Source of the DNA: Tubiluchus corallicola
Lineage: Eukaryota > Priapulida > Priapulimorpha > Priapulimorphida > Tubiluchidae
DNA length: 64,000 nt
NCBI GenBank assembly: GCA_030141605.1
Contig: JAQGDQ010002388.1
Span: 1-64,000 of the forward strand
Reading direction: 5' to 3'
The first letter of the stretch is position 1, and every line of letters starts with the position of its first letter. This document shows positions 29,699 through 64,000 of this stretch, piece by piece. Position numbers and translations under genes: made by a program. The notes under the pieces are model-generated. The model ran no database searches. It was given only the letters and a program-made list of their open reading frames with translations, and had not been told where the DNA came from.

Positions 29699-32164
29699 TT
29701 AATTTCTATTGATTTTTTGTATATCCGCTATTTTTATATCTGGCTTCAAAGAAAAGGCTTCTTTTTGATAGATATTTCTTTCCTGTGATGAAAGTTCTCC
29801 CCACTGAGGATCAACAGTAGAGAGCATAGCATTCTGAGATTCAAAATGTATGGGCATAGTTGTAAACAGGCGGCAAAAATTTTCAAAATTTTCAAATTCA
29901 TCAACGCTTCCTGTTTTAATCAGCCAGGCATTTTTTCTTCCTTTAGAAATCAGCTCTCTTCCTCTATTGAGTCCTGTTTCCGAAAGAGACAGCCCTTCCT
30001 GAGCGAAAATACCAATATAGGCGTTTTGAAACGAGGCGCATATGCGTTGATTTTTTTTCAATATTGCCTCAAAGCTTTCTATGGGGAAATAAAAATGCGT
30101 ATAGTTGACCGTTTCTGACTGTGGGATATCATAGAGAGCCATAGCGATATTTTTATATTGAAAGACAGAGGGCAGGCTTCCATTTCCGGCCCAAAATCCT
30201 GGGCGCCCAAAACCGATTGGTATTGATTCTCCAGGGTGATTCAGCCACAGATGCAAGGTATTTTTTTCTCCTAATACGGTATAAAGGATAGTTTCCTGAT
30301 ATCCATGCCCATAAGGGTTATACTCTTGCGCTGACTCCATCAGGTAATAGTGTGTTTTATAAAGAGACAGAGAAACAAAGTTATTTTCGCCCTGGCTTTG
30401 TGTAACGATAAGGGCATCTTCTTTTTTAGGTGTTAGATAAACGTCAAGTGTTTTATCAGGCGTATAGTTTGATAGGGATAGCAGCGGAAGTGCCCAGCAA
30501 GCTTCATTAAGGTTTCCTGTTTTATAAAAAACCCAGAAAAATGCTGACATTTCATTAGAGCGCACGCCTTTAAGGTTTTTCTCATAGCTTCGCCCTTGAG
30601 AGGCTCCCATATAGCCGTGATGATGATGGAGCGCCATTTTCTCAAACAGAATATTCAGTGCTTTTTTAGCGTGTTTTTTCAATGTTTCGTGAGAGGAAAA
30701 CTCGATAATTGTTAAAAACCCCATCATATCGATTGGAAAGTAAGGAATGGAATTCCACTCAGAAAGCTCGCATTGAAAGAAATGCTCAAACCATGCTGTC
30801 ATTTTATCGTAAGCAACTTTGGAAGCTTCTTTTCCTGTCATGCCGCTGTTTGTAAAAATGTCATCGGGAAGAAACTCTCCTGCTATCATCTGGCAGCAAT
30901 GAAAAAGAAGCGCGTGATTTTCGCTGAAGTACCACATGACATCATTTCCGGGCTCATCCATCCAGTATCGAAAATTCAAAAGTGTTTCTTTAAGCTCCTG
31001 TCGTTCGTCAGTGATATTTTCGGGATAATATTTCCATATCCATAGAAGGGGAATAATGGAAAAATCAGCGCAATCTCCACGCTTATTAATAAAGGCCATT
31101 GCTTTTTCAATAAGCTGCGTAGCTTGTGGAAACAGCGTTTTTTCCTGAGCGGCAAAAATTGCTAAGGCTCTGGCGGTATTTTCAATTCCGTAATGCGCGG
31201 AAAATGTAAGAGCTTGTTGTTTTCTTTCCAGTACGGTTTCCAAGGGGATTGGCTGCCTCTTTATATCCATAAATTCTGCTGGCAGTGTTCTATTGATTGT
31301 AATCGTACCTATTTGAAAGGCGCAGTTTATATAGCAAAATCCTACTGGAAGCTCTGTGACCTCAGGCAGAGAAAGGGATGTTATTTCGGGAGAAAGATCA
31401 AATTCATAGCGCTTAGGCTTACATGATTCGATAAAATTGCCCTCTACAGTTATGGAAACCTGTACGGGATATTGTAATTTTCCACTAAAATAAAGATGGG
31501 GACTTCCGTGTGAGAAGCGGTCTGTTTTAAAGTGAATGCCTTGAACCCATGTTTCTATCTCTTGAACATGGTTTGGATTTTCCGAAATAGGCAAAAAGCA
31601 TGAGAGAGTCTTTTGGCTTTCAAGTGTCAGAAGGAAATAATATCGTGCGTCTCGCTCGCATAGATCGTCAAAAAGGATAATAAGCTCATTGTCTCCTTTT
31701 TCCAGAGAAAGAGTTAACGGCCATTGTTTTTCAACATTTCTTTGATAGGAGCAATATTCACCAACAGCTTTTCCATTCAGCCACAGAAAAGCGCCTCCGC
31801 ATGTTGCTAGTATAAAGTCGACATCTTGTTCTGTTTCTGAATGGATGAATGTTCTGGCTGTTGTTGTTACATAGGTAGGAAAGAACCAGAATCCTGATCG
31901 CTCTATTTTTTCATTTTCGAAAGGAAAATAGATTTCACTGTAATGAGGGCTATCTTCTTTTTGCACAGTTCGTGTCTTTACCTGTTGCAGAAACTCTACT
32001 CTACAAGGATATTGCTGAGAGATAATACCATTTTTAAAAAAGTTTGCGCACATCTCTTCTTTCATAGGCTTAGGAGCGGCACGGAACTCTTTTTCTTCAA
32101 GATCGGTTAACTGCCAATGAGTCAAGGATTCTCCTTGTCGAAAAGACTTGACGAATTTTCCCAT
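29699..32164 (-). CDS. Large uncharacterised protein of a glycan operon, possible carbohydrate-active enzyme
   Basis: The 821-residue protein belongs to no family I can name with confidence. Roughly three parts are visible. Residues 1-260 look like a jelly-roll sugar-binding region (FLWLNGKAVGEY, KGDNELIILFDD). Residues 300-560 are helical with WYFSENHALLFHCCQMIAGE near 400 and GASQGRSYEKNLKG near 510, like an alpha/alpha toroid. Residues 570-760 are beta-rich, with NPYGHGYQE, WLNHPGE and RPGFWAGNG. This toroid-plus-sandwich order recalls heparinase-type lyases. No signal peptide is seen, so it would be cytoplasmic. It lies between the sugar-binding protein and GH105 genes and probably acts on the same imported oligosaccharide. 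Confidence 0.6.
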   Translation of the reverse strand: MGKFVKSFRQGESLTHWQLTDLEEKEFRAAPKPMKEEMCANFFKNGIISQQYPCRVEFLQQVKTRTVQKEDSPHYSEIYFPFENEKIERSGFWFFPTYVTTTARTFIHSETEQDVDFILATCGGAFLWLNGKAVGEYCSYQRNVEKQWPLTLSLEKGDNELIILFDDLCERDARYYFLLTLESQKTLSCFLPISENPNHVQEIETWVQGIHFKTDRFSHGSPHLYFSGKLQYPVQVSITVEGNFIESCKPKRYEFDLSPEITSLSLPEVTELPVGFCYINCAFQIGTITINRTLPAEFMDIKRQPIPLETVLERKQQALTFSAHYGIENTARALAIFAAQEKTLFPQATQLIEKAMAFINKRGDCADFSIIPLLWIWKYYPENITDERQELKETLLNFRYWMDEPGNDVMWYFSENHALLFHCCQMIAGEFLPDDIFTNSGMTGKEASKVAYDKMTAWFEHFFQCELSEWNSIPYFPIDMMGFLTIIEFSSHETLKKHAKKALNILFEKMALHHHHGYMGASQGRSYEKNLKGVRSNEMSAFFWVFYKTGNLNEACWALPLLSLSNYTPDKTLDVYLTPKKEDALIVTQSQGENNFVSLSLYKTHYYLMESAQEYNPYGHGYQETILYTVLGEKNTLHLWLNHPGESIPIGFGRPGFWAGNGSLPSVFQYKNIAMALYDIPQSETVNYTHFYFPIESFEAILKKNQRICASFQNAYIGIFAQEGLSLSETGLNRGRELISKGRKNAWLIKTGSVDEFENFENFCRLFTTMPIHFESQNAMLSTVDPQWGELSSQERNIYQKEAFSLKPDIKIADIQKINRN

Positions 32165-32183: not shown

Positions 32184-33404
32184 CTATCGATAGGCTTTTT
32201 TAATTTCTCTTTCTATACGTTTTTCAAGTCGCTGCAACGCTTGCTTGGGCGTATATTTTTTCTGCAGTGCTTCTACGATAGAAAGTTTTAACATATTGGA
32301 TGCTTTAGGCATGACCTTATAATCCGACCAATCGTTTCCGGCGTATTCTGAAGAGACAGAGAGTTCGTTTGCAAAGATGTCAAACATTTCCTTTCCGATG
32401 CTGTAAGGTAAATCTTCATTATCTTTTCTAGGGCTGATAAAGAGGGATTCTAAACAATATTCCGCATTGACTTCCTGTGAGGCGAAATAAGCGAGAAACT
32501 CTTTTGCTTCCTGTTCATATCCACTGTTTTTCAGGGCCATGATATACTTCCCTCCTGGAACGGAAGAGCGGCGCTCTCCTTTTGGAAGGTAGGTCACTCC
32601 CCATTGAAAATTTTCAATTTCCTTATAGTTATTCAACATCCAATTTCCTGAAAGATGTGTTGCGACGGTTCCTGTCCTGAACAGAGCGTTTGGGTTTTCG
32701 CTGCCAAGCCATACTGAGGGAGGGATAATGCCTTCGTCATGAAGATGTACAAATTTTTCTAAAGCTTTTATAGATTGCGGTGTATTAACGAGTGTTTTTT
32801 TTCTGTCATCACTAAAAATTCGACCGTTATACTCGTATAATATTGTTGAGAATCGATGGGGTGTAAAGTCCCATACCATTCCGTATCGCGCGTCAGAATT
32901 TTCGACAACTTTTTTGATAGTTTCCTCAAATTCTTCCCAGCTCCAGACCTCATCTTCAGAGAGGGGCGGAACGATTCCTGCCTGATCAAAAAGCGTTTTA
33001 TTATAGATTAATCCGTTCGCTGTTACATCTGAGGGAATACCATAAACTGTTTCATCTATGATATAGTATGATCTCAAGGAATCGAAAAATTCTTCAGGGT
33101 CAATATAATCGTTAAGAGGCAGAGCAAAATTTGCATATTGAACCGGATGAGGAATTCGAGAGATTGCAGGTGGTTTTTTACCGGCGATCATTGTTTTTAA
33201 CTTTGTATCGATATCGCTATAGGCGACTTCTATGATATTAAAGTTAATATTTCCTTTTTCCTTTGCGTAGTGTTCTGCGATTTTTCTAAGGGCTTCTCCT
33301 TCCACGCCATCGCTCCACCAGAGAATATCGAGTGTTTTTGCGAATGCTGTATTTCCCAGAAGACATGCCGTTGCTACAGCGGCAATCCATTTCATTTTTT
33401 TCAT
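32184..33404 (-). CDS. Sugar ABC transporter substrate-binding protein (system 1)
   Basis: The 406-residue protein has a signal peptide (residues 1-22, ending AFA) and an extracellular sugar-binding family 1 fold (LDILWWSDGVEGEALRKIAEHY, IPSDVTANGLIYNKTLFDQAGI, LSGNWMLNNYKE). It is the periplasmic receptor of the operon ATPase-MalF-MalG-receptor-821aa-GH105. The substrate is probably an oligosaccharide with an unsaturated uronic acid end, inferred from GH105. A strong AAGGAGA site precedes the ATG. Confidence 0.88.
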   Translation of the reverse strand: MKKMKWIAAVATACLLGNTAFAKTLDILWWSDGVEGEALRKIAEHYAKEKGNINFNIIEVAYSDIDTKLKTMIAGKKPPAISRIPHPVQYANFALPLNDYIDPEEFFDSLRSYYIIDETVYGIPSDVTANGLIYNKTLFDQAGIVPPLSEDEVWSWEEFEETIKKVVENSDARYGMVWDFTPHRFSTILYEYNGRIFSDDRKKTLVNTPQSIKALEKFVHLHDEGIIPPSVWLGSENPNALFRTGTVATHLSGNWMLNNYKEIENFQWGVTYLPKGERRSSVPGGKYIMALKNSGYEQEAKEFLAYFASQEVNAEYCLESLFISPRKDNEDLPYSIGKEMFDIFANELSVSSEYAGNDWSDYKVMPKASNMLKLSIVEALQKKYTPKQALQRLEKRIEREIKKAYR

Positions 33405-40815: not shown

Positions 40816-42060
40816 TTAATTTGTATAATCAAACACGGTTTCTAGCTCTTTAATTGCGCGATCAACTGACATTCTCGGGCTATTCCAAAAGTTGGAAGTG
40901 ACATCCAGCAGCTGTCCTCTCCAATCGCCTGTTGTATACCATGCGGGGTTAGGAAGTTGATAGTCTGGATTGCTGACAATCTCTAAGGAAAGTTGTGCGC
41001 ATTCATCAATTTCGTTTTTATCCACATCTAGGCGAATTGGTGCTGATCCTTTGATATTGGAAAAGGCCACTTGAACATCTTTATCAAAGGCGGCGCTAAT
41101 GAACGCGTTTTGCGCTGCTGTATTTTTTGTTTTGGGGAAAACAAAGCTATCGATGGTTAAGATAAAGGCTTCATTTCCGCCGGGAGCCATTGTGCATCCG
41201 AAATCCACACCGATTTTTTTCCCTGCGGCAAGGAACTCGCCTTTCATCCAATCCCCATGAATTTGCATAGCGGCTTTATCCTGTATGACTAGGTAGGTTG
41301 CGTCATTCCAGTTTCTTCCAGTTGCGCCTCGATCGGTATAATCTTTTATTTTTCGAAAAATCTCGAATGCTTTCCGCATTTCCGGTGAGCGCAGGGTGGA
41401 TTTTTTTGGATTAGGGCCATACATATCCATATAGAGTTGTTTGCCCCCTACTCCGATAAGAACGTTATAAAAGAGGATATGTTCCTGCCAACTTTGCCCG
41501 CCATGTGCAAGGGGGATATAGCCTGCGGCTTTAATTTTATCAGCAACGACAAAAAACTCGTCCCACGTTTTCGGAGGTTGAATATTCAACTCATCGAAAA
41601 TTTTCTTATTATAATATAGAGCGTTATCGGTATGAAGATTTATAGGAAGACCTAAAATGACAGTATTTCCTTTTTCGCCATGATAAGAAGCCATTTTTTG
41701 TGCTTCTTCCGGTATGACTTTAAAAAACCCGAGCTTTTCAACGTTATCGAAAATATTGTTCATTTTTCCTGCTTCGTAGAGCTCGCGAACAAATTCATCC
41801 GGATGGCTTTGAAAAGAGTCTGGGGGGTTATTGCCGGCAAAGCGGTTTCGGACGAAGCTTAAGGCGCCGTCGTTAGTTGCTATGGCAGAATCTTTCCACT
41901 TATAGCCTTTTTTTTCAAAAGCACTGACAATAACCTGTAAAGCAGCTGATTCACTACCGGAAGTCCACCAATGTATAACCTCAAGTTCTTGCTTTGCTTC
42001 TGCTGTAGAAAATGTTATTCCCCCAGCGATCAGGCATAAGACCAGATATTGAATCTTCAT
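40816..42060 (-). CDS. Sugar ABC substrate-binding protein, glucose/mannose type (system 2)
   Basis: The 414-residue protein has a signal peptide (residues 1-22, ending AEA), then LEVIHWWTSGSESAALQVI, which is characteristic of proteobacterial glucose/mannose receptors. Further on are NLHTDNALYYNKKIF and AAMQIHGDWMKGEF. With the divergent GH1 beta-glucosidase, this suggests uptake of glucose or short glucosides. A GGGAG site precedes the ATG. It is the first gene of the system 2 operon. Confidence 0.9.
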   Translation of the reverse strand: MKIQYLVLCLIAGGITFSTAEAKQELEVIHWWTSGSESAALQVIVSAFEKKGYKWKDSAIATNDGALSFVRNRFAGNNPPDSFQSHPDEFVRELYEAGKMNNIFDNVEKLGFFKVIPEEAQKMASYHGEKGNTVILGLPINLHTDNALYYNKKIFDELNIQPPKTWDEFFVVADKIKAAGYIPLAHGGQSWQEHILFYNVLIGVGGKQLYMDMYGPNPKKSTLRSPEMRKAFEIFRKIKDYTDRGATGRNWNDATYLVIQDKAAMQIHGDWMKGEFLAAGKKIGVDFGCTMAPGGNEAFILTIDSFVFPKTKNTAAQNAFISAAFDKDVQVAFSNIKGSAPIRLDVDKNEIDECAQLSLEIVSNPDYQLPNPAWYTTGDWRGQLLDVTSNFWNSPRMSVDRAIKELETVFDYTN

Positions 42061-42296
42061 ATTGCACTCCCTGTTTATTTTACTGTTTTATTAGCTATTA
42101 TTATTTATGATTAATTATCCAGCAACTATAGCATCTCTGTAAAAACCTTGTCAATCAGACTTTAATTATCATGAGTTTTCTTTAATTTTATTCGTAAGGA
42201 AAAATTTATATTTATTTATGCAATAGAAAGGAATACACTCCAACGGAATATTAATTGATAAATAATAATTTAAGAACATTTAAAGGGAGAATTTTT

Positions 42297-43649
42297 ATGG
42301 TACAACGTCATTTTCCAGCTGATTTTTTATGGGGTGCTTCAACGGCCAGCTATCAGATTGAGGGAGCTGTTCATGAGGAAGGAAGAAAAGATAGTATATG
42401 GGATGTTTTCTGCCGTCGCCCTGGTGCCATTCGTGACGGGAGCAGCGGTGAGATTGCCGATGATCATTATCATCGTTATCCTGAGGATATTCAAATTATG
42501 AAAGATCTAGGTTTAAAGGCTTATCGTTTTTCCTTATCTTGGCCACGAATTTTTCCTGATGGTTTTGGCACACCTAACGAGAAAGGGCTGGACTTTTACG
42601 ATCGTGTCATTGATGAAACGCTTCGTCAAGGGATAGATCCTTGGATTTGTCTTTATCATTGGGACTTACCTCAAGCTTTGCATCGCAGAGGAGGTTGGAC
42701 TAACCGAGATATTGCCAGCTGGTTTGGAGAGCTAGCGGAGATTTCCGGTAAGCGTTATGGCGATCGTGTTAAGGTTTGGAGTATCATTAACGAACATAGT
42801 GTTACGGCGTCTTTAGGGTATGAAATAGGAGAGCATGCGCCGGGAATAAAAGATTTTTATAGTGCGATTGCAGTGATGCATCATCAAAACTTAGCGCAAG
42901 GAAGAGCCATTGATATTTTACGTTCTCTTCATCCTGACAGTAAGGTAGGGACTATTTTCGCTCTATCGACTCAGACTCCTTATTTTGCGGATTGCCCAGA
43001 ACATCAGGCACTTGCGAGCAAGGCGGAAGATATTATGTTTGGGCAATATTGTGATCCGCTTTATTTTGGAAAATATAACGCGCATCTTCTTCCGTATGTT
43101 TCAGAGTTTATTCAGGATGGGGATATGGATATTATCCGCAAGGAGATTGATTTCTTTGGTCTTAATTATTACATGCGTTATTTCATTCAGAAGACGAATT
43201 TTCCGACACCGTATGGATATACGGGAACTTTTATTCCTTATGGCGCTGCGAAGCTGACTGATATGGCCTGGGAAATCAAAGGAGAAGGTTTATATGACAT
43301 GCTACATAAGATCAAGGCACGTTATAACAACCCGACGATTTATATTACGGAGAATGGATGCGCTATGCCTGATCATGTACAACCAGACGGCCGAATCGAA
43401 GATAATGATCGTATAGATTATCTTCAGGAATATCTCTCCTGGTCTCACAAAGCGATTAGTGAAGGTGTTAATCTGAAAGGCTATCTTATTTGGACACTGC
43501 TTGATAATTTCGAGTGGGCCTATGGCTTAGCAAAGCGTTTTGGTCTTGTTCATGTTGATTATACTACTTTAAAGAGAACGCCTAAGAAATCATGGTATTG
43601 GATGCAAAAGCTTATTGCCGATAATGAAATAGAGGATAATACTCTCTAA
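42297..43649 (+). CDS. GH1 beta-glucosidase
   Basis: The protein of 450 residues has the GH1 N-terminus (FLWGASTASYQIEGAV), the acid/base Glu in IINEHSV (about residue 165) and the nucleophile Glu in YITENG (about residue 354), with DNFEWAYGLAKRFGLVHVDY at the C-terminus. The Pro of the usual NEP motif is His here. There is no signal peptide, so it acts in the cytoplasm, probably on cellobiose-like or phenolic beta-glucosides. The ATG at 42297 follows GGGAGA and puts the N-terminus where the family starts. It is divergent from system 2. Confidence 0.92.
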   Translation: MVQRHFPADFLWGASTASYQIEGAVHEEGRKDSIWDVFCRRPGAIRDGSSGEIADDHYHRYPEDIQIMKDLGLKAYRFSLSWPRIFPDGFGTPNEKGLDFYDRVIDETLRQGIDPWICLYHWDLPQALHRRGGWTNRDIASWFGELAEISGKRYGDRVKVWSIINEHSVTASLGYEIGEHAPGIKDFYSAIAVMHHQNLAQGRAIDILRSLHPDSKVGTIFALSTQTPYFADCPEHQALASKAEDIMFGQYCDPLYFGKYNAHLLPYVSEFIQDGDMDIIRKEIDFFGLNYYMRYFIQKTNFPTPYGYTGTFIPYGAAKLTDMAWEIKGEGLYDMLHKIKARYNNPTIYITENGCAMPDHVQPDGRIEDNDRIDYLQEYLSWSHKAISEGVNLKGYLIWTLLDNFEWAYGLAKRFGLVHVDYTTLKRTPKKSWYWMQKLIADNEIEDNTL

Positions 43650-43781: not shown

Positions 43782-45041
43782 ATGTTTAAGCAATTTATGC
43801 ATACAATTGCCTCTTTATGTTTAGCGGTGGTATTTTCTTTTTCTTCTGCTTATTCTGCGGAAGTGTCTATCGCTATGGCTTTAATTGGGCAGGATTATGA
43901 ATTTATCAAAGATGTTGCGGCGGAATGGGAACAAGAAACAGGACACACGCTTAAATTTGTAGAGTTACCGAATAACTCGAGTGATCAGTTTGTTCAATTT
44001 AAAACCTGGTTATCTGCTGGAAGCAGTGATGTTGATATTTATCGTGTTGATACTGTTTGGGGGCCTCAGCTTGCGAGTCATTTTGTCGATTTAAAATCCT
44101 ATGTTCCGGATTTGGATGAGATTGTTCCTTCTATCATTGAATCTCAGATGGTTAACGGGCATTTGATTGCGATTCCGTTTCATACAGATGTGCCTGTTTT
44201 ATATTACCGGAAAGACTTGCTTGAAAAATACAATTACCCTGTTCCAAAGAGTTGGGAAGAAATGACAAATATCGCGTTTGATATTATGAGACGCGAGCGT
44301 TCTCACAACAGTAAAATGTGGGGGTTTGTCTGGCAAGGTGCGTCGTATGAAGGGCTGACCTGTAATGCTCTTGAGTGGATTAAGAGTTATGGTGGCGGTC
44401 AGATTGTTGAAACAGATGGCACGATTAGCATAAACAATCCTTATGCGGCCAAGGCAATCAATTTGGCGGCGAGCTGGGTCAATACCATATCTCCTCCGGG
44501 GATATTGTCTTATATGGAAGAGAATGCGCGTGGTATTTGGCAGCTTGGCAATTCGGTCTTTATGCGGAATTGGCCATATGCTTACTCTCTTGGGGAGTTA
44601 GACAATAGCCCTATTAAAGGGAAAGTCGGCATAGCGCCTCTTCCTTCCGGCTCTAATGAGACAGCTTCAACTCTTGGGGGATGGAGCATGTCTGTTTCCA
44701 AATATTCAAAAAACCAGCAGGCGGCGATTAGTTTAGCGGTAAAACTCGCCAGTAAGGACGTTCAAAAGCGCCAGGCGATATTGCAGTCAAAGCTTCCAAC
44801 CTACCCTTCTCTTTATCAGGATCCAGATATTTTGGAAGCCTATCCATTCTTCGCTAATATTCTCGAGTCTGTCAAAGGAAGTGTTCCCCGCCCTTCTGCG
44901 CCGACGCAGCGACGATATCAGGAAGTATCAACAGAATTTTGGAATGCGGTTCATAAAACACTTTCAGGTAATGGAGATGCAGAGACAAACCTCAGTCAAC
45001 TGGAGCGTCGCTTAAAAAGAGTTAAAGGCAAGTCCTGGTAA
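43782..45041 (+). CDS. Sugar ABC substrate-binding protein, Thu/Agl-like (system 3)
   Basis: The 419-residue protein has a signal peptide (residues 1-26, ending AYSAE), then SIAMALIGQDYEFIKDVAAEWEQ and SDVDIYRVDTVWGPQLA, followed by IPFHTDVPVLYYRKDLLEKY. This matches the trehalose/maltose/sucrose receptors (ThuE-like) of alphaproteobacteria. With the downstream alpha-glucosidase, the substrate is probably an alpha-glucoside. A GGGAG site precedes the ATG. Confidence 0.88.
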   Translation: MFKQFMHTIASLCLAVVFSFSSAYSAEVSIAMALIGQDYEFIKDVAAEWEQETGHTLKFVELPNNSSDQFVQFKTWLSAGSSDVDIYRVDTVWGPQLASHFVDLKSYVPDLDEIVPSIIESQMVNGHLIAIPFHTDVPVLYYRKDLLEKYNYPVPKSWEEMTNIAFDIMRRERSHNSKMWGFVWQGASYEGLTCNALEWIKSYGGGQIVETDGTISINNPYAAKAINLAASWVNTISPPGILSYMEENARGIWQLGNSVFMRNWPYAYSLGELDNSPIKGKVGIAPLPSGSNETASTLGGWSMSVSKYSKNQQAAISLAVKLASKDVQKRQAILQSKLPTYPSLYQDPDILEAYPFFANILESVKGSVPRPSAPTQRRYQEVSTEFWNAVHKTLSGNGDAETNLSQLERRLKRVKGKSW

Positions 45042-46931: not shown

Positions 46932-48578
46932 ATGACACACACGATAAAAAAAGATTGGTGGAGAGGCGCTGTTATCTATCAAATTTATCCTCGTTCCTAC
47001 TATGATTCTAATGGCGATGGCGTTGGGGATTTAGAGGGCGTTACAGAAAAGCTTGACTATGTTGCTTCTCTAGGGGTTGATGGTATTTGGCTCTCACCGT
47101 TTTTTCCGTCTCCCATGAAGGATTTTGGCTATGATGTTTCGGATTATTGTGATGTTGATCCTTTATTTGGTTCATTATCTGATTTTGATTCTCTGGTTAA
47201 AAAGGCGCATTCTTTGGGCTTAAAAGTGATTATTGATCAAGTTATCAGTCATACATCTGATCAGCATCCTTGGTTTCAGGAAAGTCGCCAAAGCCGGGAT
47301 AATCCCAAAGCGGGCTGGTATGTATGGGCTGATCCGAAAGCAGATGGCACACCGCCTAACAACTGGTTGTCGATTTTCGGAGGAAGTGCTTGGCAGTGGG
47401 ATACGCGTCGTTGCCAATATTATATGCATAATTTTCTTAAGGAGCAGCCGGATATCAATTTTCATCATCCCCAAGCCCGGCAAGCGCTTCTTAATACGCT
47501 AGAGTTCTGGCTTAAGAGGGGTGTTGATGGTTTTCGTTTTGACACGGTGAATTTTTATTATCATGATGATTTATTGCGTAATAATCCTGCAGAGGAACGT
47601 CCTGGTGTTATTTTAGATATTGCGTCTTCAAACCCTTATGGATATCAGCAGCATTTATTTGACAAGACTCGTCCGGAAAATATTGATTTTATGGAAGATA
47701 TTCGATCATTGCTGGATCGGTATGGCGCGACGACCTCTCTTGGAGAGGTCGGGGCCAGTCTTGACAGTATGCGTGTTATCTCGGATTATACGAAATCTAG
47801 CGAGCGTCTTCATATGTGTTATGGCTTTGATTTTATGAACTGTCCTTTAGAGACATCATATTTCCGCGAGCGTATTTCTGCGTTTGAGGAGATGAAGGAA
47901 GGGTGGATCTGTTGGGCGTTATCCAACCATGACTCGCCTCGCCATATCAGCAACTGGAGTCAAAAAGAGGAGGATCATGTTCCTTTAGCAAGGATGCTTC
48001 TTGTTTTACTGTTATGTTTAAGAGGAACGGCTTGTCTCTATCAAGGTGAGGAACTTGGGCTTGAGGAAGCGGATATTGCGTTTGAGGATCTTCAAGATCC
48101 GTGTGGAATTGAGTTCTGGCCTGAATGGAAGGGGCGTGACGGCTGTAGAACACCGATGCCTTGGGAGGGCGCAAAAACCCATGCTGCTTTTATTAAGGGC
48201 GCTCCTTCTTCTGTAAAGCCTTGGTTACCTATTCCTGAATCTCATAAGAAGAAGGCAGTTTCTTGCCAAGAGGGCCGTGAGGAGTCTTTATTATCTTTTT
48301 ATAGAATGGCTATTCCTTGGTATAAATCTCATGAACCTTTAGTTAAGGGGGATATTTCTTTTCCTAGTGAGTCTCCTTCCCTTTTGGTTTTTAATCGGGA
48401 GTATAGAGGTGAAAAAATACTGTGTCTTTTTAATTTTTCTTCTATGCCTCAGCAATGGGAATTTTCTTCCGATGATGATGCATGGACGATTGAGCCTCTT
48501 TTGCACAATGGATCTTTTTTAAATGGAAAGACAATTGATATAGATAAATATGGGTTTTTCATTTGCAAAACGGTATGA
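46932..48578 (+). CDS. GH13 alpha-glucosidase (oligo-1,6-glucosidase/AglA group)
   Basis: The 548-residue protein is a complete GH13 enzyme. It has AVIYQIYPRSYYDSNGDGVGD and GYDVSDYCDVDP at the N-terminus, the nucleophile Asp in GFRFDTVNF (about residue 208), the acid/base Glu in TSLGEVG, and the stabilising Asp in SNHDSPR. There is no signal peptide. It should hydrolyse alpha-glucosides such as maltose, sucrose or isomaltose after uptake by system 3. It is the last gene of this operon. AAGGAAA precedes the ATG. Confidence 0.92.
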   Translation: MTHTIKKDWWRGAVIYQIYPRSYYDSNGDGVGDLEGVTEKLDYVASLGVDGIWLSPFFPSPMKDFGYDVSDYCDVDPLFGSLSDFDSLVKKAHSLGLKVIIDQVISHTSDQHPWFQESRQSRDNPKAGWYVWADPKADGTPPNNWLSIFGGSAWQWDTRRCQYYMHNFLKEQPDINFHHPQARQALLNTLEFWLKRGVDGFRFDTVNFYYHDDLLRNNPAEERPGVILDIASSNPYGYQQHLFDKTRPENIDFMEDIRSLLDRYGATTSLGEVGASLDSMRVISDYTKSSERLHMCYGFDFMNCPLETSYFRERISAFEEMKEGWICWALSNHDSPRHISNWSQKEEDHVPLARMLLVLLLCLRGTACLYQGEELGLEEADIAFEDLQDPCGIEFWPEWKGRDGCRTPMPWEGAKTHAAFIKGAPSSVKPWLPIPESHKKKAVSCQEGREESLLSFYRMAIPWYKSHEPLVKGDISFPSESPSLLVFNREYRGEKILCLFNFSSMPQQWEFSSDDDAWTIEPLLHNGSFLNGKTIDIDKYGFFICKTV

Positions 48579-58899: not shown

Positions 58900-59664
58900 C
58901 TAAGAGAGCCCTCTACTTCCTGAAAGATTTTTTGTAGAAAAGTGCCTCACTTTTTCCAGGGCGGTTTTAGTCATTTTGTCTAGGGTTTTTTTCGATATTC
59001 TGACTGTGGGTCCTGAGATTCCTACTGCTGCGATAATGCTCCCTTGCTCATTAAATAGAGGAAGGCCAACACACCGAATACCCAAGGCATATTCTTCATC
59101 GTCAATTGCATATCCTCTTTGAGCGATACTTTTAATGTGTCTGTTTAGATTTTCTTTGCAACCAATTGTAAATTCTGTGTATTTTTTAAGCTCTTTTATG
59201 TTTTCTAACAGAAATGGCTCAAAGGCCAGGAAGGTTTTTCCCAATGCTGTGCAGTGGAGTGGTGCGAAGCTACCGATATCATGTTCAACTTTAAGGATAT
59301 GATCCGATAAGACACGTTCTATATAGAAAGCTTTATTTCCCACTCTAACAGCGCAGTATACTGTTTCCCCTGTTATTTCCTGCAGATTCTGTAGTAACTG
59401 AGTGGCACTATCTTTGACTTGCTCAAAGTCAAACATATTACTGCTTTGGTGATATTTAGAGGGGTTTACAAAAAGACCAGAAGAAAAATAGCGTTTATTT
59501 TCTCTTGTAAGGGAGCCGCAATCCTGCAGTGTTTTTAAAATTTTAGAAGCATAGCTTCGGCTGATATTGAAATATTCCGCGACATCTGTTATTCGCATCC
59601 CCTCTTTAGAGTTTACAATAAGCTTCAATATTTTCAGACTGGTTCCAACAGATTTTATTGACAA
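58900..59664 (-). CDS. IclR-family transcriptional regulator
   Basis: The 254-residue protein has an N-terminal winged HTH (MRITDVAEYFNISRSYASKILKTL, about 18-41) and an IclR effector domain (about 75-250, with LHCTALGKTFLAF, GYAIDDEEYALGIRCVGLPLF and AAVGISGP). The start is TTG, with GGAG seven bases upstream, and no nearby ATG offers a better choice. It is divergent from the transketolase operon across 262 AT-rich bases, so it probably controls that operon in response to a pathway metabolite. Confidence 0.88.
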   Translation of the reverse strand: MSIKSVGTSLKILKLIVNSKEGMRITDVAEYFNISRSYASKILKTLQDCGSLTRENKRYFSSGLFVNPSKYHQSSNMFDFEQVKDSATQLLQNLQEITGETVYCAVRVGNKAFYIERVLSDHILKVEHDIGSFAPLHCTALGKTFLAFEPFLLENIKELKKYTEFTIGCKENLNRHIKSIAQRGYAIDDEEYALGIRCVGLPLFNEQGSIIAAVGISGPTVRISKKTLDKMTKTALEKVRHFSTKNLSGSRGLS

Positions 59665-59926
59665 TAAAAGCTCCTAATTTTTTATATCGTGCGATCATTC
59701 CCTAAATTTAAATAAAAAAACTCTATTTGTAAACAATTATTTCTTTTTCTTTCTGTTTTTATTTAAATGTTGACATATAGATAATTTTCTGAAACTCTAA
59801 ATAAAGGATCCATAGTGTATCAGCAAAGGATAGTATTGTTGATTTTTCTTATCTGTTTTGTTGGTTCATGGCATTAATTTGTTGGTATATGCGGGAGGCT
59901 TTTGCTGACATGTTAGGAGGCTTGTT

Positions 59927-60760
59927 GTGATAACAGAAAAAATTGCAGAAAAGGCGTATAAGATCAGGCGCCATGTTATTGAAGCTGCCTTTTCCACTTC
60001 CTGTGGTCATATTGGTGGTTCTTTATCGGAAGCGGAGATATTATCGGCTTTATTTTTTGAGGTTATGGATATTGATCCTCTCTTCCCTACTCGTTGTGAG
60101 CGTGATCGCTTTGTTCTTTCCAAGGGGCATGCGTCTTTAGGTTATTATGCGGCTTTAGCGCTTAGGGGATTTTTTCCGCCTGAGGAACTTCATACTTTTG
60201 ATTCTTTTAATTCTCGTCTTCAGGGACATCCTGATATGCATAAGACTCCTGGGGTTGATTTTTCTTCTGGTTCTTTAGGGCAGGGTCTTTCTGTTGCGCT
60301 TGGTTTTGCGTTGGGAAGAGAGAACAGAGGGTTGAGTTTTACAAGCTTTGCCCTTTTAGGGGATGGAGAATGTCAAGAAGGGCAAGTTTGGGAAGCGATC
60401 ATGTATGCGGGTGACAAGAAGGTCAAGGGACTGGTTGCTATTATTGACAATAATGGTGTTCAGCTTTCTGGCACGACTGATTCTGTTTTAGGGATTGAGC
60501 CTTCTCTTGATCATAAGATTGAATCGTTTGGTTGGCATGTTCTTCGGTGTGATGGCCACGATCCGGGTGCTCTTCTTCATACTTTAACGCTTTCAAAAGA
60601 GATTTCTTCTACGGTTCCTGTCGCGGTTATTGCGGATACTATCAAGGGGAAAGGGGTTTCGTTTATGGAGGGTGAATATCATTGGCATGGTGCTGCTCTT
60701 AGTAAGGATGAGGCTGAGCGTGCTCTTTCTGAACTTGATCATTCTTTTAGGGGAGTTTAA
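59927..60760 (+). CDS. Transketolase, N-terminal (ThDP-binding) subunit
   Basis: The 277-residue protein is the first half of a split transketolase. It has SCGHIGGSLSEAEILSALFF, SKGHASLGYYAAL, GSLGQGLSVALGFALG and the ThDP/Mg motif LGDGECQEGQVWEA...IIDNNGVQLSG. It starts with GTG after a strong TAGGAGG. It pairs with the next gene, three bases on. Split transketolases are often substrate-specific catabolic enzymes rather than the pentose phosphate one. Confidence 0.92.
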   Translation: MITEKIAEKAYKIRRHVIEAAFSTSCGHIGGSLSEAEILSALFFEVMDIDPLFPTRCERDRFVLSKGHASLGYYAALALRGFFPPEELHTFDSFNSRLQGHPDMHKTPGVDFSSGSLGQGLSVALGFALGRENRGLSFTSFALLGDGECQEGQVWEAIMYAGDKKVKGLVAIIDNNGVQLSGTTDSVLGIEPSLDHKIESFGWHVLRCDGHDPGALLHTLTLSKEISSTVPVAVIADTIKGKGVSFMEGEYHWHGAALSKDEAERALSELDHSFRGV

Positions 60761-60763
60761 ATT

Positions 60764-61750
60764 ATGTCCACATATCCTATATCGTCTATGGTTGCGCATC
60801 GTGATGCTTTTGGTCATGCGCTTGTAGAATTTGCGGATCGGTATCCTGATCTTGTTGTATTTGATTCAGATGTTTGCACTTCGACAAAGACCTCTTTATT
60901 CCGGGAGGCGTATCCTGAAAGATTTTACCAGATGGGGATTGCGGAATCCAATATGGTTGGAGTTGCTGCTGGTCTTTCTTCTCTTGGCTGTACGCCTTTT
61001 GTTTCAACTTTCGCTGTTTTTTTGGCGAAGCGTGCGATTGATCAGATTCGTGTTTCCGTTGCGATTGCGCAAGCGAATGTTAAGTTAAACGGCGCTTATG
61101 GTGGCCTTCCGACGGGTCGTGCCGGTGCGACTCATTCTTCTGTAGAGGATATTGCTGTTATGCGCTCAATGCCTAACATGCGTGTTCTTGTTCCGGCGGA
61201 CGCTGTAGAAACGCGTTTAGCTGTACAGCTTGCGCTAGACACCAAGGGGCCTGTTTATCTCCGGACAGTCCGTTGTCCTGTTAAGGTTGTTTTTCCAGAA
61301 GATCATACTTTATCATGGGGAGAGGCCACAATTCTTGCACAAGGAAACGATGTTGCGTTAATTTCCACGGGAATGATGACACCTAAGGCTTTACACTCAT
61401 GCCGAAAGCTTCAGAAGAAGGGAATTTCTGTTCGTCATATTCATATGCCGTCTATCAAGCCATTGGATGAATCGGTAATTATAGCCGCTGCAAAAGAGTG
61501 TGGTTTAATTGTCACTGTTGAAAACCACAGTATTATCGGAGGATTAGGAAGTGCTGTTACAGAGGTTGTTACACAACATCATCCCTGTAAAGTTGAGCGA
61601 ATTGGATTTCCAGATATTTTTATGGAATCCGGCGATGATGAGGCTATTTTTTCATCGCTTGGTATGAATGTCGATGAGATTGCATCATCTGTTATGTATC
61701 TTATGGACTCTAATCGTTTGAGTTATCAAGAAAATTTAAAATGCATATAA
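60764..61750 (+). CDS. Transketolase, C-terminal (Pyr) subunit
   Basis: The 328-residue protein completes the transketolase. It has the Pyr domain (FYQMGIAESNMVGVAAGLSSLGCTPFVSTFAVFL with the catalytic Glu in AESN), GGLPTGRAGATHSSVEDIAVMRSMPNM with the active-site His in THSSVED, and the C-terminal domain (SLGSAVTE-like GGLGSAVTEVV). It forms the active site at the interface with the N subunit. Same operon. Confidence 0.92.
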   Translation: MSTYPISSMVAHRDAFGHALVEFADRYPDLVVFDSDVCTSTKTSLFREAYPERFYQMGIAESNMVGVAAGLSSLGCTPFVSTFAVFLAKRAIDQIRVSVAIAQANVKLNGAYGGLPTGRAGATHSSVEDIAVMRSMPNMRVLVPADAVETRLAVQLALDTKGPVYLRTVRCPVKVVFPEDHTLSWGEATILAQGNDVALISTGMMTPKALHSCRKLQKKGISVRHIHMPSIKPLDESVIIAAAKECGLIVTVENHSIIGGLGSAVTEVVTQHHPCKVERIGFPDIFMESGDDEAIFSSLGMNVDEIASSVMYLMDSNRLSYQENLKCI

Positions 61751-61810
61751 GGAAATATCCTGTTTATTTCTTATACCATTTCAAAATAAAAAGCAGAAAG
61801 GAGAGCTTTC

Positions 61811-62446
61811 ATGAAAGTCGCTGTTATTAGTGAAATTAGCGCTATTAGTCGCAATCCGGATATTTTAGGTGCTTTGGAAGGATATGATCACGAGATTATC
61901 AATGTAGGGATGAGTCCTTCACGGGATACGCCAGAGCTCCAATATAATCATAGTGGATTTTTAGCGGCTCTTCTTCTGAACAGCAAGACTGTTGATTTTG
62001 TTATTGGTGGGTGTGGTACGGGCCAGGGATTTATGATTTCGGTTTCTCAGTATCCCAATGTTTTTTGTGGTCATATTCTCACACCTCTTGACGCTTGGCT
62101 GTTTGCGCAGATTAATGGTGGGAATGTGATTGCTCTTCCATTCAATCAGGGGTATGGCTGGGCGGGCGATATCAATCTCCGCTTTGTTTTTGAAAAATTA
62201 TTTTCCACTCCTTTCGGCAGCGGTTATCCAAAGGAGCGGCAGGAGCCTCAGCGAAAATCCCGACAATTGCTTTATGATATTTCTCAAAAGACCCATCAGG
62301 ATTTTCATACAATTTTACAATTGCTTGATCGTGATTTTATTGCTCATTGTCTTTTATTTCCGGGGATCAGGGCGCTTTTAAATGTTCCTTCAATAGAGGA
62401 TTCACATTTACGGGATCATTTAACGAAATTTTATGATGAAAGCTAG
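61811..62446 (+). CDS. RpiB/LacA/LacB-family sugar-phosphate isomerase
   Basis: The 211-residue protein has the RpiB core but in a variant form: VIGGCGTGQGFMIS (Cys at about residue 68, the position of the RpiB catalytic Cys), then CGHILTPLDAWLFAQINGGNVIALPFNQGYGWAGDINLRFVFEKLF. It is longer than the usual 150 residues by a C-terminal helical extension. Family members interconvert aldose and ketose phosphates (ribose, allose, erythrulose, galactose). With a split transketolase next door, a tetrose- or pentose-type substrate is likely. AAAGGAGAG precedes the ATG. Confidence 0.82.
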   Translation: MKVAVISEISAISRNPDILGALEGYDHEIINVGMSPSRDTPELQYNHSGFLAALLLNSKTVDFVIGGCGTGQGFMISVSQYPNVFCGHILTPLDAWLFAQINGGNVIALPFNQGYGWAGDINLRFVFEKLFSTPFGSGYPKERQEPQRKSRQLLYDISQKTHQDFHTILQLLDRDFIAHCLLFPGIRALLNVPSIEDSHLRDHLTKFYDES

Positions 62447-64000
62447 CTCTATGGTAAAGTCTGATTGTTTTCACAGAGCCGATCGTTTAAAAAATTATCC
62501 GACTGTTACGGCTGCTATTTCTGATGGCGCGATTGATCAATTTGCGTCTATTTCTGTTAGCGAGGCGCTTATTCTTGGCCTTTATAACCAGGGTGTCAGA
62601 AAATATATTGGCATTTTTGGCCATGGATCCACGCATATTGGAGATGTTTTAAGACTATATGAAAAAGCCGGCGCGCTGAAAGTTTATAATGTTAGAAATG
62701 AGGTGGAGGCGTCGCATATTGCGCTTTTGTTAAAATGGCACTTTCATGAGGAGTGTGCTGTTTTTACTTCGATTGGTCCCGGAGCGTTGCAGGCGTTTGC
62801 TGGCTCTTTGGCGCCAGCTTCCAATCATGTTGGTGTTTATTATATATTTGGTGACGAGACAAGTCATGACGAGGGTTTTAATATGCAGCAGATACCCTCT
62901 CCGGATCAGCATTCTTTTTTAAAGATGATGTCGATTATGGGCGGGGCTTATGCGCTTCACACGCCTTATGCGATTTCCAGCGCAATGAGAAAAGGTATTG
63001 CTCATATTTTCAATCCATATAAATCCAGCCCCTTTTATCTTCTGATGCCGATGAATATTCAACCTGTATTTATGGAGCGTTTTAATCTTTTGGAGCTTCC
63101 ACTTCCGCCGCAAAAGAGTCGTTTTACTTCTGCCTCGGAAACGCATCTTCATAAGGCTGCCGAGCTGATTAATTCTTATGAGAAGATCACTGTAAAAATT
63201 GGCAATGGAGCGAAATTGATTCCGACTTCTTTGCTGGAGTCTTTTCTTAAGCGGTCTGCTGCTGTTTTAGTTCATGGTCCTTCTTCCACTGGTGTTATCC
63301 CCTATTCTTCTTGCTATAATATGTCAGTTGGGGGTTCTAAAGGTTCTATTAGCGGCAATTATGCGATGGAGAATTGCGAGCTTTTGATTGTGATTGGCGC
63401 ACGGGCTGTTTGCCAGTGGGACAGTTCAGGAACAGCTTTTAAGCATGTTAAGGATATTATTAACATCAATACTGACTTTCATGATGTTATTCATTATAAT
63501 CGTTCTCTTCCTTTATTAGGGGATGCGACACTTATTTTAGAGGCTTTGCTTGAGCATATTGATAAAGAGGCTGAGACTTCGCCATGGCTAAAAGCTTGTT
63601 TTGCGCAGAAACATGCATGGGACGACTTTAAGCAGGAGCGTTATAACACCCCTACTCTCTTTGATAAAAAATGGCAGAAGCACCTGCTCACACAGCCTGC
63701 TGCGATTAAGGCTTGTATTGACTTTGCGGACAGCAAGGGGGCACTGAAGCTTTTTGATGCGGGCGATGTTCAGGCTAATGGTTTCCAGGTTACGGAGGAT
63801 CATTCCCCTAACCAAACAATAACGGATACAGGCTCTTCCTATATGGGATTTGCGAGTTCTGCTGTGATTGCGGGTGGGATTGCGGATCAGGGGCGTTATT
63901 GTATTGCCTTTACGGGGGATGGAAGTTTTATGATGAATCCTCAAGTACTTATTGATGCGGTTGAATTTGGCATTAGTGGTATGATTCTACTGTTCGACAA
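62436..64000 (+). CDS. IolD-like ThDP-dependent enzyme (truncated by window end)
   Basis: The frame is open for 521 codons to the window edge. It has the acetolactate-synthase/IolD fold: Pyr domain with YIGIFGHGSTHIGDVL and VYNVRNEVEASHIALLL (the ThDP-activating Glu in RNE), SIGPGALQAFAGSLAP, a central domain (ISGNYAMENCELLIVIGARAVCQWDSSG), and the start of the ThDP-binding motif FTGDGSFMMNPQVLIDA. IolD hydrolyses a cyclohexanedione in inositol catabolism, and this may act on a related compound. ATGs at 62436 (overlapping the isomerase stop) and 62451 are both possible. Confidence 0.8.
   Translation, partial: MKASSMVKSDCFHRADRLKNYPTVTAAISDGAIDQFASISVSEALILGLYNQGVRKYIGIFGHGSTHIGDVLRLYEKAGALKVYNVRNEVEASHIALLLKWHFHEECAVFTSIGPGALQAFAGSLAPASNHVGVYYIFGDETSHDEGFNMQQIPSPDQHSFLKMMSIMGGAYALHTPYAISSAMRKGIAHIFNPYKSSPFYLLMPMNIQPVFMERFNLLELPLPPQKSRFTSASETHLHKAAELINSYEKITVKIGNGAKLIPTSLLESFLKRSAAVLVHGPSSTGVIPYSSCYNMSVGGSKGSISGNYAMENCELLIVIGARAVCQWDSSGTAFKHVKDIININTDFHDVIHYNRSLPLLGDATLILEALLEHIDKEAETSPWLKACFAQKHAWDDFKQERYNTPTLFDKKWQKHLLTQPAAIKACIDFADSKGALKLFDAGDVQANGFQVTEDHSPNQTITDTGSSYMGFASSAVIAGGIADQGRYCIAFTGDGSFMMNPQVLIDAVEFGISGMILLFD

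Follow-up and report, generated by a model that had tools for sequence, protein, structure and literature searches.

The locus described here raises the question of which compound is broken down by an operon that joins a split transketolase to a sugar isomerase and a thiamine diphosphate (ThDP)-dependent enzyme, and by what route. The operon starts near the end of a window of 64,000 bases (bases 1-64000 of contig JAQGDQ010002388.1, here C20, which is 234,451 bases long) in the 343.5 Mb assembly of Tubiluchus corallicola. It comprises eight genes, which encode the transketolase subunits TktN and TktC, the isomerase, the ThDP enzyme, the three components of an ATP-binding cassette (ABC) importer of the CUT2 type and a Gfo/Idh/MocA oxidoreductase. 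It is a real and conserved operon for a pathway of which no description was found. The comparisons suggest a breakdown route that is widespread, with this operon as one of its versions. There is about an even chance that it is the transketolase version of a widespread non-phosphorylative catabolic pathway, apparently undescribed, built around the one ThDP enzyme. No description of the gene combination was found in the open-access literature; this is weak evidence, most subscription journals lying outside the coverage.

An earlier note, made from the window alone, had reported four tightly spaced genes divergent from an IclR regulator and had placed the rest of the operon outside the window. 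Both points were borne out. The four genes were found as open reading frames (ORFs) at the places given, all on the plus strand, with spacings of 3, 60 and -14 bases and with matching Pfam and NCBIfam families. The last 105 residues of the ThDP enzyme, the importer and the oxidoreductase follow on the same contig and strand. By Pfam and NCBIfam matches none of the eight genes belongs to the iolE, iolB, iolC or iolJ families, and none is a kinase. The standard iol operon that the note had named as counter-evidence did not follow downstream. The note's proposal of an undescribed pathway was right in outline and is partly supported; the operon is coherent, conserved and catabolic. The detail, an inositol-like or branched sugar, is unproven, and a carboxylated C5 aldehyde agrees better with the exits than do the intermediates of classical inositol breakdown.

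Entries and exits around the ThDP enzyme

Comparison of conserved neighbourhoods, proposed in the earlier note, gave 101 loci that share the ThDP enzyme and carry alternative entries and exits. A six-member ThDP profile found at least 531 related stretches in genomes, and the best 80 (46-56% identity) were fetched. Drawn genomes were searched at E values up to 1e-100. Of 344 Spirochaetota 17 had the enzyme, as did 5 of 350 Chloroflexota and, among 392 members of Faecalicatena's order, Faecalicatena faecalis alone; 17 places from these searches were fetched as loci. A tblastn search of plasmids gave seven records at 48-52% identity, the next matches falling to 25%. Plasmid matches H37 and H38, whose match values equal those of H36, were not taken as loci. 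Genes within 8 kb of the ThDP gene were scored by a fixed rule with bit-score limits. From 103 scored loci two near-copies, L073 and L109 (95.5% to L066), were dropped from the counts and the tree, leaving 79 of the best 80 relatives, 16 of the 17 fetched places, five plasmid loci and the window. L053 and L108, with fewer than 450 aligned residues, were counted but not placed in the tree. Contig ends truncate many of the loci.

The exits were mutually exclusive. Aldehyde dehydrogenase (ALDH) and/or IlvD was present in 53 loci (both in 43) and the isomerase in 23; no locus had both kinds and 25 had neither. Isomerase loci were of two further types without overlap, with TktN and TktC in 8 of the 23 and beta-keto-acid cleavage enzyme (BKACE) in 12; neither a split transketolase nor BKACE was scored in a locus that lacked the isomerase. 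The combination of isomerase, ThDP enzyme and split transketolase was thus found in 8 of 101 loci. An ADP-forming CoA synthetase accompanied BKACE in 10 of 12 loci, as did a cupin (10 of 12). This cupin (s136) had no match to a Vibrio cupin taken for KdgF and a weak match (26%) to a Novosphingobium cupin; its structural model (pLDDT 65) matched cupins of many functions in Foldseek, including phosphoglucose and phosphomannose isomerases. Dehydrogenases of the methylmalonate semialdehyde dehydrogenase (MMSDH) type scored 533 and 562 bits (cut-off 448.5) in the transketolase operons L021 and L110. No further sugar-cleaving gene followed IlvD in the three annotated plasmid loci.

The entries divided in the same manner. 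A close Gfo/Idh was present in 45 loci and a zinc dehydrogenase and/or molybdenum (Mo) hydroxylase in 33, with both in none and neither in 23. TTT importers were found in 21 of the 33 zinc/Mo loci and 0 of the 45 Gfo loci, while CUT1, CUT2 or GPH importers were found in 32 of the 45 Gfo loci compared to 1 of the 33 zinc/Mo loci. Individual acid importers were TTT in L009, TRAP in L010 and DASS in L014.

Some features of the entries are recorded here as separate observations. In the zinc/Mo entry (L014, L015 and 31 other loci) the zinc dehydrogenase was 65-92% identical to a Phaeobacter copy, and the Mo hydroxylase was of the xanthine-dehydrogenase type. At least five loci (L025, L042, L046, L048 and L078) had a distant Gfo/Idh (23-29%) which the close Gfo count ignores. 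Near the ThDP gene in such loci, with one or two proteins checked, were an alpha/beta hydrolase (L078), a metallo-beta-lactamase-like protein (L025) and a xylose-isomerase-like TIM barrel (L042).

A single group of 29 in the ThDP tree of 99 rows held every isomerase locus together with three ALDH/IlvD loci, L037, L064 and L096. The IlvD locus L064 was sister to the transketolase locus L080 (99*), and the window was sister to the Lachnospiraceae loci L014 and L015 (98*), which use the zinc/Mo entry. Because entries and exits swap within the tree, the step catalyzed by the ThDP enzyme, from X to Y in the route proposed below, appears to have been kept.

The Spirochaetota gave a second view of the association. 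An isomerase profile split the 344 genomes cleanly, 16 having matches of at least 300 bits and 16 others of 137-222 bits. Fourteen of the 16 genomes with the stronger matches, which mark the isomerase clade, were among the 17 ThDP-positive genomes. Both remaining matches lay where a contig ends. In one, 117 residues of the ThDP enzyme could still be seen; in the other, BKACE lies about 2 kb upstream and the sequence stops 80 bases past the isomerase. None of the 16 genomes with weaker matches had the ThDP enzyme. Of the ThDP-positive genomes that lacked the isomerase, G590 has ALDH and IlvD (L096), the gene in G409 runs off the end of its contig of 4,952 bases (L108) and that in G614 is 1,023 bases at a contig end.

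The ThDP enzyme, isomerase and split transketolase

The ThDP enzyme had been called IolD-like, which holds in that IolD was its nearest neighbor among the rows tested and does not extend to membership of that family. IolD (TIGR04377, 3D-trihydroxycyclohexanedione acylhydrolase) was the best NCBIfam match, at 107 bits for the 522 window residues against a cut-off of 715; a full-length relative (L008) reached 154 bits. Length is similar to IolD, and identity to three IolD proteins was 24-26%. In a 24-row tree 16 rows of the ThDP clade formed one group and three IolD rows another (100/100 each). The two were sisters (99/97), a relation that is unsure due to long branches, that to the ThDP clade being 4.65 changes per column. 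IlvI and a row resembling acetolactate synthase lay across the tree, again on long branches, and SpxB was likewise on the opposite side. The enzyme stands apart from the acetolactate synthase sampled; a place within the acetolactate synthases, together with a transketolase of the housekeeping clade and no other in the genome, was what the earlier note had named as refuting its reading. The model of a relative from L014 (pLDDT 89) had a fold like those of acetolactate synthase, 2-hydroxyacyl-CoA lyase and glyoxylate carboligase, at 16-20% identity. These results place the enzyme in an uncharacterized clade outside the IolD family. Relatives occur in Alpha- and Betaproteobacteria (including SAR11-type bacteria and rhizobia), Lachnospiraceae, Spirochaetota, Chloroflexota and Actinomycetota. 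In three annotated plasmid records it is named only thiamine pyrophosphate-dependent enzyme. A more distant ThDP enzyme in Haladaptatus (L117:2962-7407) lies near ABC importer genes and a gene annotated as iolM (scyllo-inosose 3-dehydrogenase).

The isomerase belongs to NCBIfam PRK09273, well above its cut-off, and scored 30 bits with the RpiB model (cut-off 135). The 23 operon isomerases formed one clade apart from four rows labelled DhuI-type (100/100). A kduD gene lies near two of those four rows (Novosphingobium and Vibrio) and not near the other two; family matches placed no dhuD or kduD among the eight operon genes. By tree grouping and neighbors the operon isomerase is probably not DhuI proper. 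It shares the PRK09273 family and the GCG(T/A)GxG loop with DhuI, and differs in having ETSA-like residues in place of the ENSQ of DhuI in a 27-row alignment. The GCGTGQG loop had been considered unusual, but it is the family norm: four aligned solved members read GCG(T/A)GxG and 27 aligned rows read GCGTGxG. The protein is proposed to be an aldose-ketose isomerase of a carboxylated short sugar.

The transketolase is truly of two subunits, with the N and Pyr/C domains on separate proteins. Within the split-transketolase clade TktN paired with the copy from the spirochaete operon L021 (100/97), and TktC was 59% identical to that of L021. Operon copies of TktN occupied three places in this clade, at least two of them forced by starred branches, and full-length transketolases were separate (100/100). 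The three places are independent of two irregular rows, L124 (the L015 operon copy fetched twice) and L031 (labelled split, a 679-residue frame in the full-length clade). As transketolase was recruited repeatedly beside the same two enzymes, the isomerase product is probably a transketolase donor. A full-length transketolase frame was found in 7 of 11 relatives' genomes searched, including 3 of the 6 with a transketolase exit. The transketolase may be a dedicated one: TktN lies outside the full-length, housekeeping-type clade, and a second transketolase was seen in half of the transketolase-exit genomes searched.

Table 1. Features of the operon and its divergent regulator (contig positions)
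Feature	Position	Strand	Basis
IclR-family regulator, divergent	58900..59664	-	IclR_C 123.9 bits, HTH_IclR 30.1 bits (Pfam)
Presumed promoter/operator shared by both directions, 262-base intergenic region	59665..59926	.	Read directly
TktN, N-terminal (ThDP-binding) transketolase subunit	59927..60760	+	Transketolase_N 154.7 bits
TktC, C-terminal transketolase subunit	60764..61750	+	Transket_pyr 130.3 bits, Transketolase_C 99.5 bits
PRK09273-type isomerase (RpiB/LacAB superfamily)	61811..62446	+	PRK09273 212.5 bits (cut-off 137), LacAB_rpiB 51 bits
ThDP-dependent enzyme, 522 of 627 residues inside window	62433..64000 (gene end at 64316)	+	TPP_enzyme_M/C/N
Ribose-type substrate-binding protein of CUT2 importer	64371-65330, beyond window	+	Family matches
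ABC ATPase of CUT2 importer	65395-66888, beyond window	+	Family matches
Permease of CUT2 importer	66931-67869, beyond window	+	Family matches
Gfo/Idh/MocA oxidoreductase	67909-69024, beyond window	+	Family matches

Proposed route and rival readings

The alternative entries and exits indicate that the ThDP enzyme probably makes an aldehyde, which is then either oxidized and dehydrated or isomerized and cleaved. The reaction steps, their order and the identity of the aldehyde are drawn from the chemistry of the families. A small sugar-like compound S would be imported by the CUT2 system and oxidized by Gfo/Idh to a keto compound X, in which the ThDP enzyme would cut a C-C bond to give a short aldehyde acid Y. 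The PRK09273 isomerase would convert the aldose end of Y to a ketose Z. The split transketolase would then pass a two-carbon ketol unit from Z onto a sugar phosphate, for example glyceraldehyde 3-phosphate, giving xylulose 5-phosphate and a smaller semialdehyde. Carbon would be captured in this way onto pre-existing sugar phosphates, with no sugar kinase among the eight genes.

Y should be an aldehyde with hydroxyls on the next two carbons, since it would be handled by ALDH and then IlvD, or by the isomerase and then transketolase. A carboxylate on Y is suggested by the succinate semialdehyde dehydrogenase (SSADH)-like ALDH, the relationship to DhuI and BKACE, and the MMSDH-family members of L021 and L110 point to malonate semialdehyde as the transketolase leftover. 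The best-fitting candidate for Y is 3,4-dihydroxy-5-oxopentanoate (OHC-CHOH-CHOH-CH2-COO-). DhuI acts on DHU (PMC12838403), a compound which, judged by its name, would share the OHC-CHOH-CHOH-CH2 head of this candidate. With ALDH and IlvD, Y would pass through 2,3-dihydroxyglutarate to 2-oxoglutarate. With the isomerase and transketolase it would pass through HOCH2-CO-CHOH-CH2-COO- to xylulose 5-phosphate and malonate semialdehyde. In the BKACE exit one more isomerization, by the cupin, would give a 2-deoxy-3-keto-pentonate and then acetoacetate and glyceryl-CoA. BKACE with CoA synthetase and cupin suits these products. In the breakdown of deoxyribonate, BKACE has been proposed to split 2-deoxy-3-keto-ribonate into the same two compounds (PMC6365646). 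That oxidative route, in which BKACE works on a 2-deoxy-keto-pentonate and one dehydrogenase depends on molybdenum, recalls the spirochaete exit and the second entry; unlike in the loci here, neither a ThDP enzyme nor an RpiB-type isomerase nor a transketolase appears in the available part of its description (PMC6365646).

If the ThDP enzyme does stand at the center of such a route, one uncharacterized enzyme would account for around a hundred gene clusters, and a function would be given at once to a PRK09273 subclade, several split transketolases, and BKACE and IlvD proteins. The mutually exclusive exits make the intermediate testable, as one assay should predict the other two endings.

The identity of S and X is narrowed by importers and dehydrogenases. 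Sugar importers with Gfo/Idh suggest a sugar or cyclitol, and acid importers suggest an acid. Candidates are therefore a cyclitol or a hexuronate-type sugar acid, the latter oxidized to an alpha-keto acid which the ThDP enzyme would decarboxylate with loss of water. Enzymes of this ThDP superfamily usually act on alpha-keto acids. Both kinds of importer would agree with a hexuronate-type acid, and inositol would suit the substrate-binding protein and the resemblance to IolD and IolG. Taken as a whole, a kinase-free hexuronate-type route spread over many phyla is rather improbable. In it a dehydrogenase would form the alpha-keto acid, and ThDP decarboxylation with internal water loss, a phosphoketolase-like internal redox step in an acetolactate-synthase fold, would give a 2-deoxy-penturonate. 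The endings would be 2-oxoglutarate, xylulose 5-phosphate with acetyl-CoA, or acetoacetate and glycerate with ATP. Conversion of inosose to a hexodialdose was rejected, as it offers no carboxylate for BKACE or a DhuI-like isomerase. 2,3-Diketogulonate, 5-keto-gluconate, KDG/DHU and apiose were considered on paper and set aside, and none explains the zinc/Mo entry.

Several observations weigh against the route through a C5 aldehyde acid. The zinc/Mo entry, including its Mo hydroxylase step, fits no S that could be named and none of the substrates considered, and its acid importers are at odds with the sugar importers found beside Gfo/Idh. For the BKACE exit the cupin would have to act as a second isomerase, and the cupin model is weak. 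The nearest solved protein to the CUT2 substrate-binding protein is 4yo7, which we take to be inositol-bound; this nearness is suggestive only and would favor a cyclitol and a C6 product. MMSDH is present in only 2 of 8 transketolase loci, and the only match over cut-off in this assembly lies on another contig (C2335). The SSADH-like ALDH (470/646 bits) and BKACE (292/382) were under the cut-offs of their nearest models, as was the CoA synthetase, nearest to 3-hydroxypropionate-CoA ligase (809/1300 bits). Of 64 loci flanked by 5 kb or more in each direction, 10 had no recognized exit. Locus counts are not frequencies, because the sample consists of the best 80 of at least 531 relatives plus plasmids, spirochaetes and Chloroflexota. 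Fisher p-values (2.0e-9 for the locus scoring and 2.8e-20 for the Spirochaetota genomes) overstate the association because loci share ancestry. Support for the window's place beside L014 and L015 fell to 83/54 in the careful 24-row tree. Three of the six transketolase-exit genomes searched had no full-length transketolase, so the split enzyme may serve housekeeping there, although these genomes are metagenome-assembled and possibly incomplete. A Dak1-Dak2 dihydroxyacetone kinase, outside the proposed route, is the next ORF past TktC in L015 (L015:14033-15760).

The sister position of the ThDP clade to IolD, the presence of IolG among the Gfo/Idh matches (95 bits, cut-off 355) and the nearness to 4yo7 would all suit a variant inositol pathway. 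Gfo/Idh would give an inosose, the ThDP enzyme would open the ring without IolE to give 5-deoxyglucuronate, the isomerase would take the place of IolB to give 2-deoxy-5-keto-gluconate, and transketolase would replace IolC and IolJ. In keeping with such an exchange, KduI, a member of the KduI/IolB family, has the same function on DHU as the RpiB-type DhuI (PMC12838403). This variant is judged unlikely. Beyond the very long branch that makes the IolD relationship unsure, ALDH and IlvD would end in 4-hydroxy-2-oxoadipate and an aldolase would be needed; the annotation of three plasmid loci shows none, many flanking ORFs elsewhere being unannotated. Transketolase would leave a C4 aldehyde and not the malonate semialdehyde suggested by MMSDH, one isomerization yields no beta-keto acid for BKACE, and the zinc/Mo entry with acid importers does not fit. 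Shortening Y to C4 tartrate semialdehyde would meet some of the same evidence: the SSADH-like ALDH and IlvD would lead to oxaloacetate, itself a central metabolite, isomerase and transketolase would give glyoxylate and xylulose 5-phosphate, and the isomerase product would itself be a beta-keto acid on which BKACE could act directly. BKACE would then give 2-hydroxyacetoacetate, and the MMSDH of L021 and L110 and the cupin in most BKACE loci stay unexplained, which makes a C4 compound quite unlikely.

Faecalicatena species reportedly use a transketolase/transaldolase route for sulfoquinovose (SQ), and the closest relative locus among the matches listed was from a Faecalicatena species. A sulfosugar pathway of the sulfo-TK type would make the split transketolase SqwGH and the isomerase SqwI. 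In sulfo-TK the transketolase SqwGH and SqwI, a PF02502 isomerase of proposed activity, act on unphosphorylated sulfonated sugars to give xylulose 5-phosphate (PMC9594981), and the operon shares this design of split transketolase and PF02502 isomerase. Unlike sulfo-TK it has a ThDP enzyme of the acetolactate synthase superfamily, a Gfo/Idh and an ABC importer. Matches revealed no sulfoquinovosidase, SQ isomerase, sulfoacetaldehyde-handling or sulfonate-export gene among the eight. The ThDP enzyme, Gfo/Idh and carboxylate-type exits are not among the sulfo-TK genes in the available part of that account (PMC9594981), and this identity is highly improbable. Equally improbable is a conventional operon for ribose use or the pentose-phosphate pathway, its transketolase being a housekeeping one. 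The ribose-type importer, the RpiB-superfamily isomerase and the three transketolase-exit genomes without a full-length enzyme would agree with it. The isomerase is PRK09273 and not RpiB, there is no kinase, the transketolase falls outside the full-length clade, and most of the relatives' genomes searched have a full-length transketolase in addition. Apiose catabolism also has a two-subunit transketolase (AptAB), with Gfo/Idh dehydrogenases and ABC, TRAP or TCT importers; unlike it, the operon has no kinase or RuBisCO-like protein among its eight genes. To our knowledge the ThDP enzyme is not part of apiose catabolism.

Flanking genes and contig

An IclR-type cluster was seen in 51 of 86 clustered loci. 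Beyond the operon, on the opposite strand, are a glycoside hydrolase of family 2 (GH2; PRK10150 260 bits, cut-off 544), another Gfo/Idh, a CUT1 importer and a GH13 resembling sucrose phosphorylase. As a pointer to the substrate, a CUT1-type substrate-binding protein was nearest to AcbH, which is suggestive only. The GC content and third-position GC of the operon were similar to those of other window genes compared. KduI/IolB-family matches in the assembly sit on contigs other than that of the operon.

C20 is a bacterial contig within a eukaryote-size assembly that looks mixed, with 24 Transket_pyr matches on 20 contigs, many of them in long stop-free frames. An NDUFA12-family protein suggests that C20 is alphaproteobacterial. 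16S matches over the cut-off were found on C555 only, which is not linked to C20.

Glycosidases also neighbor other loci, with GH127 and GH2 adjoining the BKACE-type operons L022 and L099 and GH94 and GH1 in L040. They were rejected as pointers to the starting sugar, as the window GH2 was only 23-25% like those of L022 and L099 and no common theme emerged. The region at 29699-53072 of the window and the sequence downstream are dense in sugar-use genes. An 821-residue protein (29699-32164, minus strand) with no Pfam match lies beside genes resembling sugar importers. Sugar-binding-like proteins were read by eye at 32184-33404, 40816-42060 and 43782-45041, with a GH1 at 42255-43649 and an alpha-amylase-family GH13 at 46932-48578.

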